A stretch of 44,116 bases of DNA from a virus. The notes under the pieces are model-generated. The model was not told where the DNA came from, made no database searches, and worked only from the letters and a program-made list of their open reading frames with translations. Positions 3,184 through 28,721 of this stretch are shown piece by piece. The stretch is taken from positions 1 through 44,116 of the IMG/VR virus record IMGVR_UViG_3300015242_000010. The stretch is one strand, 5' to 3'. Positions within the stretch are counted from its first letter, which is position 1. Each line of letters opens with the position of its first letter. The position numbers and the translations under genes were made by a program.

Positions 3184-3231
3184 GACCAACCTTTGGGCAG
3201 GGCCTATGGGCCCTGCTTATTGGTGGCATCA
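3184..3231 (+). repeat. Leader RNA element, family 1, copy B (48 nt)
   Basis: GACCAACCTTTG (3184-3195) and ATTGGTGGCATCA (3219-3231) match copy A at 2491-2538. The enclosed stem is GCAGGGCC/GGCCCTGC (3197-3204 with 3209-3216), unrelated in sequence to that of copy A. It lies 26 bases before ATG 3258 and its AAAGGAG site. Confidence 0.7.
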
Positions 3232-3257
3232 CAGCCAGGTCAACAAAGGAGAAAACA

Positions 3258-5093: not shown

Positions 5094-5639
5094 ATGGCTC
5101 TACCAACTAGGGCTAAGCAAATCGCGGCCGTAGCCGCACTCCTAGAGAAGGCCGCCGACGCCGATCCTCCACTTTCTCTTGAGGAGCTAGCGGAGGAAGT
5201 GGTTGATGGCTACCACAGCCTGATCGACTCAAGCATCAAGAAGCCCGTCAAATTCCCGCACACAGGAATGGCTTTCAAGACGCCCATCAGCAGCAAGGTT
5301 GCCCATGTGGCCTGGTCTGACGAGGAGTGGGCTTGGTGCGTAAGCGGAGACTCGCGATACGGATTCTTCGTCGCTACCGCCAAGTCAGACTACTGGTCTA
5401 AGGTTGAGGTATCTACCGCCAAATCTGGCGCACCAGGCCATAATCCCGACTGGAACGTGGGAGACCAAGTCCTTCGCGGCCAGATTAGAAAGCCGTTTAC
5501 GGTTCTTGCCACAGGCGATAAGTGCGTTCTCCTGCAAGACCTTGGGCCTATAGGGGATTATCCAACCTGGCGGCTACAGCCCGAGTCGAACGATAATATG
5601 AAGATATATTACAAGCGAGAAAGGACTCCGCTGCTGTGA
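5094..5639 (+). CDS. Early protein, 181 aa, unknown
   Basis: ATG 5094 is preceded by GGGAGGA; an in-frame ATG at 5079 lacks a site. An N-terminal helical region (ALPTRAKQIAAVAALLEKAA) precedes a beta-rich Trp-containing centre (HVAWSDEEWAWCV). A C-terminal segment (WNVGDQVLRGQIRKPFTVLA) recalls a small SH3-like barrel. No catalytic residues can be assigned. The next gene starts within its stop (GTGA). Confidence 0.72.
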   Translation: MALPTRAKQIAAVAALLEKAADADPPLSLEELAEEVVDGYHSLIDSSIKKPVKFPHTGMAFKTPISSKVAHVAWSDEEWAWCVSGDSRYGFFVATAKSDYWSKVEVSTAKSGAPGHNPDWNVGDQVLRGQIRKPFTVLATGDKCVLLQDLGPIGDYPTWRLQPESNDNMKIYYKRERTPLL

Positions 5640-5788
5640 ACGCTGTTGATTGGGTATTTGCTGGAGCCTTCATACTGATGGCTGGCATGGCAGCTCGCTA
5701 CCGCGAGCTGTATGTCTGGTGGGTTGAAGAAGCCCACCGTCAATACGATTGGATCGACGAGATCGCAAAAGAGCTGGAGGGTGAGTGA
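5636..5788 (+). CDS. Small membrane-anchored protein, 50 aa
   Basis: GTG 5636 overlaps the preceding stop as GTGA, with AAAGGA nine bases upstream. The N-terminus is hydrophobic (VDWVFAGAFILMAGMAA), followed by a charged amphipathic helix (RYRELYVWWVEEAHRQYDWI). This suits a single-span protein with a cytoplasmic tail. It is followed by another coupled micro membrane protein. Confidence 0.55.
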   Translation: MNAVDWVFAGAFILMAGMAARYRELYVWWVEEAHRQYDWIDEIAKELEGE

Positions 5789-5883
5789 AGAAGCCAGTTG
5801 ACTGGATCCTAAACGCGATGATGGTGCTTCTCGCAATTGACGCCATCATCTTTACCCTGTTTGTAATGCATGAATTCTTCTGA
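5785..5883 (+). CDS. Micro membrane protein, 32 aa
   Basis: GTG 5785 overlaps the previous gene's end and has GGAGG just upstream. After a short basic start (KKPVDW) the product is one hydrophobic helix ending in HEFF. It is the last gene before a bidirectional hairpin terminator. Confidence 0.5.
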   Translation: MKKPVDWILNAMMVLLAIDAIIFTLFVMHEFF

Positions 5884-5897
5884 GGCGTAAGACTGAA

Positions 5898-5932: not shown

Positions 5933-6613
5933 TCAGCCTTCGTACTCTCGCTCCGTCTGGGCGAGAGCGTCAAGGTTTCCAGAGGGCACACGTCGCCCGC
6001 TGAAGCCCTGTCGCATGCTGCTGTAGGGCTTGCTGCCAAGCCGCCTCTGAAGGGCGGCTACAGCCCGGCTGACACGCTTCTTGGCTGCCTCTGTAGAGAT
6101 TCCAAGCTCCTCCCCTACTCCTTCCGCCGACCACTGGTCTCGGTAGACACGCAGGAGAGTGAGCTGTTGATCAACTGGAAGCTTACCAAAAGCCGACTTG
6201 ATGTCTACGTACATCGCTACGTGATCACCAGTAGCGTTAGCCAGACCCTTGGCCTTAGGCTGGCCATCTCCTCGGTCCCCAAAAGACTGCCAGTCAGCAT
6301 AGTTAAATACGTTGAGGAGCAGCTCACGGACTAGGTCGAGGGGATAGTTAAATACATCCTCTGCTGAGTAGTTGTAAGTAGCCTGATCTTCTTCCCTCAA
6401 GTGCTGATTGGCAGCTCGGACCATCATGTAATAGAGATTCCCCTCCCAGTCTGGGCTATTGCGAATCATGCTCTCAATCATGCCCCTGTTCTCAATCAGC
6501 CATACCCAGAGGGAGGACTTGGTGTCCTCTTTTGAATGATGGTCTGGGAACGAGGCGTGGACGGAGTCCACGACTCTGTCGGCTAGAGGATTCAGTTTCA
6601 GTATGTCGAACAT
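5933..6613 (-). CDS. Sigma-factor-like regulator, 226 aa
   Basis: This is a likely phage RNA polymerase sigma factor, probably switching transcription to another gene class. The C-terminal third matches sigma region 4: FGKLPVDQQLTLLRVYRDQW leads into an HTH, GVGEELGISTEAAKKRVSRA, and ends with AALQRRLG. The N-terminal part is helical and Trp-rich as in region 2, but conserved region 2 motifs are hard to place. ATG 6613 lies one base after the stop of the phosphoesterase gene, so the two are co-transcribed; an in-frame codon at 6652 is rejected because it overlaps that gene. Region 4 alone could also serve in an anti-sigma or other HTH regulator. Confidence 0.75.
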   Translation of the reverse strand: MFDILKLNPLADRVVDSVHASFPDHHSKEDTKSSLWVWLIENRGMIESMIRNSPDWEGNLYYMMVRAANQHLREEDQATYNYSAEDVFNYPLDLVRELLLNVFNYADWQSFGDRGDGQPKAKGLANATGDHVAMYVDIKSAFGKLPVDQQLTLLRVYRDQWSAEGVGEELGISTEAAKKRVSRAVAALQRRLGSKPYSSMRQGFSGRRVPSGNLDALAQTEREYEG

Positions 6614-6614
6614 C

Positions 6615-7376
6615 TTAGTACCTACGGCCTTCTGCGTAGAAAAAACCTGCATTAGCAGTGATGAGCTCCGGGAAGCAACGCTTCCCGTCGTCTCGAAGAA
6701 TAGCGAATGACTGAGTCCAGCTCACCGCTCCATCCTTGATGTAGTGAGCGTCTTCAGGGTTCATAATGCTGCCAACATTCATCACCCAGCGAGGCTTCAC
6801 CTTGCCAGCGTAGCCATAGGCGGAAGAAGTGAGGAATGGCTGGTGCGTGTGGCCGAAGATTACGTTCTTGTCTGTGCCGTAGCGCTTCAAGAATTTGAGG
6901 TCCCAAGCTTGGGGTTGGGCGCTATATCCACCAGGCTCGTGTCCGTGGATGGCAAGAGTGTTGGTGCCCACCCGAACTGGCCCCTTGACGTACTCGACAC
7001 CAAACTCCTCAAGGTCAAACAGGTTCTCCATAGAGAGGGCGTCAAGAGCTTTGAGGGGGTAGGCATACTGGTTGACAAAGTCTGAGATGCGGTCGTCGTG
7101 ATTACCTGCTAGCCAGGTAAGGGCTGCCTTCGGGGCGGCCTCTCGCAGAGGTGCGAAGAACTCTTCCTTGACGCGACCGATATGCTCCTGGAGAGTGGTT
7201 GCATACTCGCCCGCGTTGCCCTTAGACCAACGACTCACCTGAGGAAAGTCGATCAAGTCTCCAACCTGAAAGACTGCGTTTGGCTGGATGTCTTCGATGA
7301 CTCGAAAGATCTTAGTGAGCATCAAAGCCGAATGGTACGGCAGTTGTACATCCGGGATAACTACGGTCGTTTTCAC
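6615..7376 (-). CDS. Calcineurin-like metallophosphoesterase, 253 aa
   Basis: This is a dimetal phosphoesterase. The family motifs are in order: PDVQLPYH near residues 8-15, GDLIDFP near 39-45, AGNHDDR near 90-96, an IHGHEPGG histidine motif and GHTHQPF toward the end. The length is normal for phage members. Substrates in phage homologues range from nucleotides to nucleic-acid ends and cannot be read from sequence. GTG 7376 has AAAGGAAC upstream. It is the first gene of a two-gene leftward unit with the sigma-like protein. Confidence 0.9.
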   Translation of the reverse strand: MKTTVVIPDVQLPYHSALMLTKIFRVIEDIQPNAVFQVGDLIDFPQVSRWSKGNAGEYATTLQEHIGRVKEEFFAPLREAAPKAALTWLAGNHDDRISDFVNQYAYPLKALDALSMENLFDLEEFGVEYVKGPVRVGTNTLAIHGHEPGGYSAQPQAWDLKFLKRYGTDKNVIFGHTHQPFLTSSAYGYAGKVKPRWVMNVGSIMNPEDAHYIKDGAVSWTQSFAILRDDGKRCFPELITANAGFFYAEGRRY

Positions 7377-26976: not shown

Positions 26977-27306
26977 TTACGCAGACGGGCGAGCGGAGGA
27001 CGAGTTCTGAGCCACGATAAGCGCCTCAGGACGGTAGAGCGTCCAGCCAGCCACGCCGTACCAGCCAAGAGGCTGGAAGCGGGTCAGCTTGTCAACGACC
27101 GGACCTCGGACGGTGTGGAACTCTTCCGCAACGGCCTCGGCAAGAGCCTGCTGGCCGGTGTAGTAGGTGTTGAAGACGCGAGTCTGAGTGGCGCCAGCGC
27201 CAGAGCCAGACTGCACGTTCTGCGCACGAGGAGTTTCGATGTAGCAAGCACCCTCGTACTCGCCAATCTCGCCTGCCCAGATGTTTCCAGCAGCCGAGTA
27301 GTTGTG
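26977..27306 (-). CDS. Major capsid protein, exon 2 (residues 223-331)
   Basis: This is the C-terminal part of the HK97-fold capsid protein. It starts at HNYSAAGNIWAGEIGEYEG, the conserved strand and loop that follow WRDP in the first exon. The open frame extends upstream to 27363 into the intron with an in-frame ATG, but that stretch does not resemble capsid protein. Pairing of bases 27306-27301 (CACAAC) with the intron guide fixes the splice site after the intron's terminal G. Confidence 0.85.
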   Translation of the reverse strand, partial: HNYSAAGNIWAGEIGEYEGACYIETPRAQNVQSGSGAGATQTRVFNTYYTGQQALAEAVAEEFHTVRGPVVDKLTRFQPLGWYGVAGWTLYRPEALIVAQNSSSARPSA

Positions 27307-28055
27307 CTTTCTGTTACCCCTCACGACGTTTCGCGTTGGGCGAAACGATAGCTCGTAGATCATCCATTTTGCAGAGAGTTTCCTCGTTGCGGGGCTTGCC
27401 GTTCAGTTCCTCAACCAGTAGTAGGAACTCGTGCATGGCCTGTACCTTCGGAACCTTCTTATCAATGTAGAAGGATTCCTCCCGAAGGATATCGATGATC
27501 TGCCGACACGTACTGTTCGTCCTGCTCATCCAAGTAAAGACGAGTTGCTTGGCACCCCGGGAGCTGTAGGTCGATTTTCGCTCATAGAGCGTTCCACCAA
27601 GGATTTCCTGGATATGGACCAGCATGCTCTTGCTGTCTTCGGCCTGTGCGATCTGAATGCTAGGACGGTGCGCCACATACATCTTTCCATGGCGACGATT
27701 CTTGTACATGTCGATACCGAGCCAACCCTCTCCCCAGAACAGGCCACGAAATTCGGCACGCCAAATCGGGTCTTCTGCAAGATGAGGTTTGATCGAGGTG
27801 TTTATGGACGGGGCCATACTTCACGCTCCTTATTTGTGAGTGACTAGGTCATTTCTGCCTAGTTCATACGGTTGAATTTCCGTATGTTCGGACTGTCGCA
27901 TCTCCAGTGCATCACTAGAGTCTCTTCACTCAGTCTCTGCAACTGCACGGGCCTCAGGGCCCTGCTTGTTGGGGGTTGGCATCTCAGCGTTCCCCATTGA
28001 TCAGAAGAGATTTAAAGACCCCCACAACTTACGCTGCAAGCGCGTAATCTACGAA
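27307..28055 (-). ncRNA. Group I intron in the capsid gene, 749 nt
   Basis: A self-splicing intron. The internal guide GUUGUG-GGGGUC (28028 down to 28017) pairs with exon 1 GACCCU (P1, U-G at the splice site) and with exon 2 CACAAC (P10). P3 is UCUCUUC (28010-28004) with GAAGAGA (27927-27921). P7 is GACUG (27935-27931) with CAGUC (27895-27891). P8 is CUCUAGUG/CACUGGAG with loop AUG (27920-27902). These are in the canonical order, and the intron ends in G27307. Further stems follow (CATACGG/CCGTATG and ACTAGG/CCTAGT). An endonuclease gene fills the 3' part. P4-P6 were not resolved in detail. Confidence 0.9.
27314..27817 (-). CDS. LAGLIDADG homing endonuclease, 167 aa
   Basis: The intron-encoded mobility enzyme that cuts intronless capsid alleles. 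ATG 27817 follows AAGGAGCGTGAAGT. One LAGLIDADG-type motif (FRGLFWGEGWLGI, residues 23-35) is present, so it should act as a homodimer. After it come beta strands (HRPSIQIAQAED), the VHIQEILGGTLY helix and QIIDILREESFY, as in the family. The stop is 7 bases before the 3' splice site, so its C-terminus spans the intron's end. It overlaps the open frame of exon 2. Confidence 0.88.
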   Translation of the reverse strand: MAPSINTSIKPHLAEDPIWRAEFRGLFWGEGWLGIDMYKNRRHGKMYVAHRPSIQIAQAEDSKSMLVHIQEILGGTLYERKSTYSSRGAKQLVFTWMSRTNSTCRQIIDILREESFYIDKKVPKVQAMHEFLLLVEELNGKPRNEETLCKMDDLRAIVSPNAKRREG

Positions 28056-28721
28056 AGGGTCTCGCCAGGCGGCAGCACCAGTCTCACGGCGCAGGTCGTA
28101 AGAGACCTGCGGGTGAATGTAGGCGGTGTAGTAGCTGCCCTTGTTCGGGTGTACCTTGTTGGTGCGAAGCTGGACAACCGCAAACCGAGCTACATCCGAA
28201 GATATGCGAGAGTTCGCAGTCTGGTCGATTGCCGTAAGGGCAGTCGGGTTAGTAGGCGTAGTACCAAAACCATAGGTGACGTTGCCCGTGGCAGGGTCAC
28301 GACGAACGGTCTGAGTACCAGCCGCCAAGACGTTCTGAACGATAAGGTCGACAGAGTCAACCAAGTTCCACGCCACCTGGTTAACCAGGCCAGCAGTAAC
28401 GTCGGTGAAGCTGAACAGGTCGAGCTTGTTGGAGACCAAGATTGCGTTGCCATACTCGTTAAGAGTAACGGACACGGTGGTCGGATTGCCGGCCGCAATG
28501 GCGTCCGGGTCAACAAGCTCGTTGAGCGGGGTGATCTGCTGAGCAAGATCCTGATACAGTTCAAATACAACACTAGAACCGGGCATGGCCTGCTGAACGG
28601 GTTGCTTGTCGGCGACCATGCGGAACATGGGCTGAGCACGCAGTGCGAACTCAAGAGCCCTGTCATACGCGGTCTGGACAAGATTCCCCATTGCTGAGGT
28701 GCCGGTAAAGGCGTTAGCCAT
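28056..28721 (-). CDS. Major capsid protein, exon 1 (residues 1-222)
   Basis: HK97-fold shell protein. ATG 28721 follows AAGGAGTGACA; an in-frame GTG at 28727 is rejected. TAYDRALEFALRAQPMFRMV, an E-loop-like PGSSVVFELYQDLAQQITPL, GNAILVSNKLDLFSFTDVTA and HPQVSYDLRRETGAAAWRDP follow the capsid pattern. Unspliced reading would end 8 residues later (FVDYALAA), removing the C-terminal third. Spliced to 27306 the protein is 331 residues, a normal length. Confidence 0.87.

Follow-up and report, generated by a model that had tools for sequence, protein, structure and literature searches.

The major capsid gene of the virus in IMG/VR record IMGVR_UViG_3300015242_000010 (44,116 nucleotides, the whole of which is referred to here as the window) is interrupted by an insert for which a mobile group I intron is, on the available support, by far the best reading, and the loop of its P1 helix probably encodes an ssrA-like degron by which truncated capsid protein would be tagged for Clp. 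The anatomy of the intron, the tail encoded in its P1 loop, the recurrence of such tails in other phage introns, their reading frame and the freedom of their codons are direct observations, whilst splicing, homing, proteolysis and benefit are inferred. It is the tail, rather than the intron itself, that is the most interesting part, and it is absent from an earlier, sequence-only reading of this DNA, in which an intron was recognized and described as uncommon in such a gene. That rarity could not be upheld: capsid-gene group I introns are of a kind already known, as the intron in LittleE has been shown by RT-PCR (PMC3706429), that of Tuc2009 is annotated, and many of the introns surveyed below lie in major head protein genes.

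The two capsid fragments proposed in the sequence-only reading were placed at the right coordinates, and both match the PHROG 1357 (major head protein) profile on neighbouring stretches, exon 1 covering 18-232 and exon 2 the adjoining 233-347. Joining position 28056 to 27306 restores WRDP/HNYSAAGNIW in frame (the slash marks the junction) and gives a protein of 331 aa, as had been claimed. Exon 1 shares ~72-78% identity with capsid genes of Streptomyces phages, among them Percastrophe, Immanuel3 and WRightOn. In 76 of 80 related viral-contig loci the gap between the two exons is exactly 0, so that intronless relatives do join these segments; their failure to do so had been named in advance as an outcome that would refute the intron. 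Three loci carry an insert at exactly the exon junction, namely L003 (749 nt, identical to the window intron), L007 (760 nt, homologous) and L056 (281 nt, homologous), and the last locus is cut off. One criterion for a group I intron, the exact in-frame interruption of a gene that has intact empty sites elsewhere, is met by these relatives. No relative was found when genome contigs were searched with the capsid exon, nor was any relative of the intron or its ORF present in the annotated phage collection, and a core pattern specific to this intron family matched only in the three known contigs. Elsewhere in the window (5933-6652, minus strand) the phage encodes a sigma factor-like protein (PHROG 354, sigma-K factor, 1.8e-15).

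The structural elements of the intron RNA are set out in Table 1. The guide GUUGUG-GGGGUC (28028-28017) pairs as originally proposed, with CACAAC of exon 2 and with GACCCU of exon 1, the terminal U of which lies opposite a G; the intron-terminal G is also present, and the P1 and P10 criterion for group I is met. P3, P7 and P8, likewise part of the original proposal, are paired over 7/7, 5/5 and 8/8 positions in all three related introns, in which P9 (7 bp), P9.1 (6) and P9.2 are present as well. Compensatory changes among these introns were found in P3 (U-A to C-G), P7 (G-C to A-U), P9.1 (U-A to C-G) and, in large number, P8. The canonical order of P3, P4-P6, P7 and P8, a further group I criterion, is thus met with covariation, on three sequences and with P4-P5 only weakly defined. 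The fold of the intron RNA is better than that of shuffles, with a z of -3.5 in the window and -3.7 in the ORF-less relative, and minimum-energy folds yield P1, P3, P6, P8, P9 and P9.1. Intron positions 68-107 have a 36-nt counterpart of 80% identity at window 3200-3235 (minus strand; E 3e-4).

Table 1. Coordinates of the split capsid gene, its intron and the elements within the intron (window numbering).
Feature	Coordinates	Strand	Basis or partner
Major capsid protein exon 1, residues 1-222	28721-28056	minus	PHROG 1357 match and relatives' junctions
Major capsid protein exon 2, residues 223-331	27306-26977	minus	PHROG 1357 match and relatives' junctions
Group I intron, 749 nt	27307-28055	minus	Empty site in 76 relatives; identical L003; homologous L007, L056
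In-frame read-through tail F V D Y A L A A stop, in P1 loop	28055-28029	minus	Like ssrA tag end
P10 guide GUUGUG	28023-28028	minus	Pairs with exon 2 CACAAC
P1 internal guide GGGGUC	28017-28022	minus	Pairs with exon 1 GACCCU, U-G at splice site
P3 5' strand UCUCUUC	28004-28010	minus	Helix comparison, three introns
P4 5' strand GGGG, tentative	27992-27995	minus	Partner CCCC about 27971-27975
P6 hairpin GCAGGGCC...GGCCCGUGC	27945-27965	minus	Intron comparison and fold
P7 5' strand GACUG (relatives GACUA)	27931-27935	minus	Compensatory change
P3 3' strand GAAGAGA	27921-27927	minus	Helix comparison, three introns
P8 hairpin CUCUAGUG AUG CACUGGAG	27902-27920	minus	Several compensatory changes
P7 3' strand CAGUC (relatives UAGUC)	27891-27895	minus	Helix comparison, three introns
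P9 hairpin CAUACGG...CCGUAUG	27865-27886	minus	Intron comparison and fold
P9.1 hairpin ACUAGG...CCUAGU	27843-27863	minus	Helix comparison, three introns
P9.2 arms	27840-27836 and 27324-27320	minus	Encloses LAGLIDADG ORF
LAGLIDADG homing endonuclease ORF, 167 aa, within P9.2	27314-27817	minus	Pfam LAGLIDADG_1

The ORF enclosed by P9.2, which like the tail is absent from the sequence-only reading and whose final codons contribute to the 3' arm of that helix, matches PF00961 (LAGLIDADG_1) at 3e-6 with 28.5 bits, above the curated cut-off of 23.1, and gives a weak match to I-OnuI (0.002). The window and L007 copies differ by 56 synonymous and 25 nonsynonymous codons, and this comparison of codons suggests that the ORF is under purifying selection. 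It is absent from intron 1 of L056, the 281-nt version of the same intron. The enzyme would presumably cut intronless alleles and so spread the intron, homing being an inference. The exact empty sites, the P1/P10 guide, the compensatory core helices, the LAGLIDADG ORF and the ORF-less relative are the grounds for reading the insert as a mobile group I intron.

Read-through from exon 1 ends in FVDYALAA-stop in the window, FVENYALAA-stop in L007 and FVKNYALAA-stop at site 1 of L056; between the window and L007 three third positions and one whole codon of the tail differ, with YALAA-stop kept. The capsid gene of L056 has a second intron of a different type (after WYGV, 5633-5890; RF00028 E 2.7e-11), and its tail is NRLGEYALAA-stop. 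The tmRNA tag of E. coli is ANDENYALAA and that of C. glutamicum is AEKSQRDYALAA (PMC4046766), whilst in certain bacteria the natural tags consist of Ala-Ala only (PMC11915505); in Mtb, ssrA-tagged proteins are degraded by mycobacterial Clp proteases (PMC4416901). The sequence criterion for an ssrA-type degron (a C-terminal LAA, preferably YALAA) is met by FVDYALAA, degradation itself being inferred.

At least 12 other phage introns, the majority of them in shell-protein genes, carry such tag-like tails, and we lean towards the view that phage capsid-gene group I introns have repeatedly evolved an ssrA-mimicking P1-loop degron, which would make the fragments translated from unspliced messages self-destructing. 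For the survey, viral contigs were searched for introns with core motifs that take no account of P1, and frames of at least 100 codons whose ends lie 40-300 nt upstream of the core were compared with the other frames of the same contigs. An LAA-stop end was found in 15 of 95 such frames against a background of 2/4357 (Fisher p 4e-24), and an AA-stop end in 26 of 95 against 42/4357 (Fisher p 2e-27); these p values are approximate, as related introns were incompletely collapsed and some open frames are spurious. By a second route, based on RF00028, AA-stop was in an open frame in seven of eight cases, compared with 56/576 for other stops. A replicate that used the AT-rich core pattern AGACTATACG gave no AA end among only six informative frames. 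One candidate, L200, was set aside: its frame stops only 49 nt short of the core motif, which leaves no room for P1-P3.

The tail could instead be devoid of protein function, belonging to an ordinary mobile intron in which ALAA is a by-product of the P1-extension hairpin or of shared P1 ancestry. We consider this unlikely, although the tail region of the window does form a perfect 6-bp P1-extension hairpin (UUACGC/GCGUAA), and the introns of LittleE and BAKA have a 5' segment in common (PMC3706429), which implies that P1 regions are exchangeable. Against a by-product, the codons for Leu, Ala, Ala and stop vary freely between introns: the 16 LAA-stop tails comprise 15 different 12-mers, use all three stop codons and have a third-position entropy of 1.65-1.78 bits, from which the constraint looks to act on the protein rather than on the RNA. 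A by-product would also have to account for the frame of the motif, since within the survey region 19 of 24 LAA-stop motifs share the frame of an ORF at least 100 codons long, as against 75/3627 other stops, and for its absence from introns of the same core in genome contigs. These control introns are of rRNA type and mostly without a long upstream ORF (109/120), and Leu-GCN-GCN-stop occurs in 0/114 of the genome-contig introns versus 14/93 of the viral ones.

The tailed exons that could be named come mostly from major head protein genes, with L102, L113, L153, L203, L240, L245, G046 and G061 belonging to PHROG 1357 and L104, L148, L190, L193 and L251 to PHROG 10; whether the PHROG 13692 cases (L116, L248) are capsid genes is uncertain. 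In a scan of capsid genes that was blind to tails, LAA-stop ended five of six distinct introns with verified exon pairs, at several sites (EDYCLAA-stop, ELALAA-stop and ELAA-stop), but L597 reads SDGNI-stop. A tail is likewise lacking in Tuc2009 (FPAWS-stop), in T4 nrdB (VSFA-stop) and at the further capsid exons of L106, L108, L305, L319, L338 and L346. A capsid query taken from L193 recovered only L193 itself. An 82-nt tmRNA match in L203 (3858-3939, minus strand) lies barely over threshold at 49.2 bits, is absent from a narrower scan and from ARAGORN, and is probably spurious. In the viral contigs L665-L667 (record G059), L675 (G068) and L681 (G074), between 5 and 12 group I introns are clustered in stretches of 4 to 36 kb.

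It is less probable still that the tail has been selected only for a stop before the guide, which would keep P1 folded, and that its alanines reflect composition or an imitation of capsid ends. The stop codon does lie immediately 5' of the guide in the clearest cases, splicing and translation are linked in T4 introns (discussed in PMC11878797), and intact proteins of the window capsid family frequently end in AA (19/76 counted). The endings of these intact proteins are, however, NAA, PAA and IAA, and no LAA end was found among the intact capsid relatives save for one count, which we take to be L056, where the exon runs into its second intron. Ala-Ala alone is therefore not diagnostic in this family and was dropped as a criterion in capsid genes, whereas LAA is diagnostic. 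A need for a stop alone would moreover leave LAA-stop unexplained (15/95 versus 2/3107 in the background from contigs with G+C of at least 0.45), and the intron in the BAKA tail gene also ends in AAA-stop. As a separate matter, the C-termini of intact capsid proteins are Ala-rich (SSSIAA, NAA, PNA; L004-L082, L538-L617), and an interplay with Clp proteolysis is possible.

The check proposed in the sequence-only reading, a search with Rfam Intron_gpI (RF00028), was run on the window and was negative, with no intron match in the Rfam search either at the gathering threshold or at E<=10. At the gathering threshold RF00028 found nothing over the T4 nrdB, Tuc2009, BAKA and LittleE introns either, so its silence in the window is not a refutation; a match to this model is a detection tool and not a defining property of group I introns. 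That silence and the lack of transcript data would suit an assembly artefact, or a capsid gene that is split or broken and has a free-standing endonuclease beside it, but the absence of any intron is hardly credible when the insert recurs in three further contigs, as an identical copy, a homologue and a version that lacks the ORF, its site is exactly empty in 76 relatives, and P1/P10 and compensatory core helices are present.

The closest comparisons are with the RT-PCR-proven introns in the LittleE capsid gene and the BAKA tail gene of Cluster J mycobacteriophages (PMC3706429), which are also actinophage structural-gene introns with Ala-rich tails, LittleE having a LAGLIDADG gene too; they differ in site and in the intron itself, and in LittleE the opposite strand carries the endonuclease gene. 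Their read-through tails (LAAAAA-stop in BAKA, ATAAA-stop in LittleE) fit the LAA-stop pattern loosely, and the tail is not mentioned in that paper. The Lactococcus phage Tuc2009 has an annotated group I intron with an endonuclease ORF in its major head protein gene, but the enzyme is of the HNH type and the read-through carries no tag. The nrdB intron of T4 and other T-even introns similarly combine a phage group I intron with a homing endonuclease, nrdB being a different host gene with a different read-through. In tmRNA (ssrA) tagging, a C-terminal YALAA or LAA marks incomplete proteins for Clp proteases, as is proposed for the window; the ssrA tag is added in trans on stalled ribosomes, whereas the window tag is encoded in cis in an intron. 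No description of intron-encoded ssrA-like tails was found in the open-access literature, subscription journals being outside the scope of the search.

In the proposed mechanism, P1 would pair the end of exon 1 with the internal guide and P10 would align exon 2, after which two transesterifications would join residues 222 and 223 to give the 331-residue protein (splicing being inferred). The P1 loop would have a second, coded function besides its role in the RNA: a ribosome leaving exon 1 before splicing would read eight more codons and stop just before the guide, releasing the 222-residue capsid fragment with a DYALAA end, as in actinobacterial tmRNA tags. The tagged fragment should then fall to the Clp proteases of the host, although proteolysis is inferred, and so is the benefit, which would lie in sparing capsid assembly a fragment that could poison it. 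The stop of the tail would also keep ribosomes off the guide and thereby protect P1. For annotation, an intron is signalled by a premature LAA-stop in a structural gene of a phage. If the mechanism is true, a catalytic RNA element also codes for a protein-level safety device, and this cis-encoded quality control would let a selfish ribozyme inhabit the most strongly expressed structural gene, which would account for the survival of introns in genes that are highly expressed and may yield dominant-negative truncated products.
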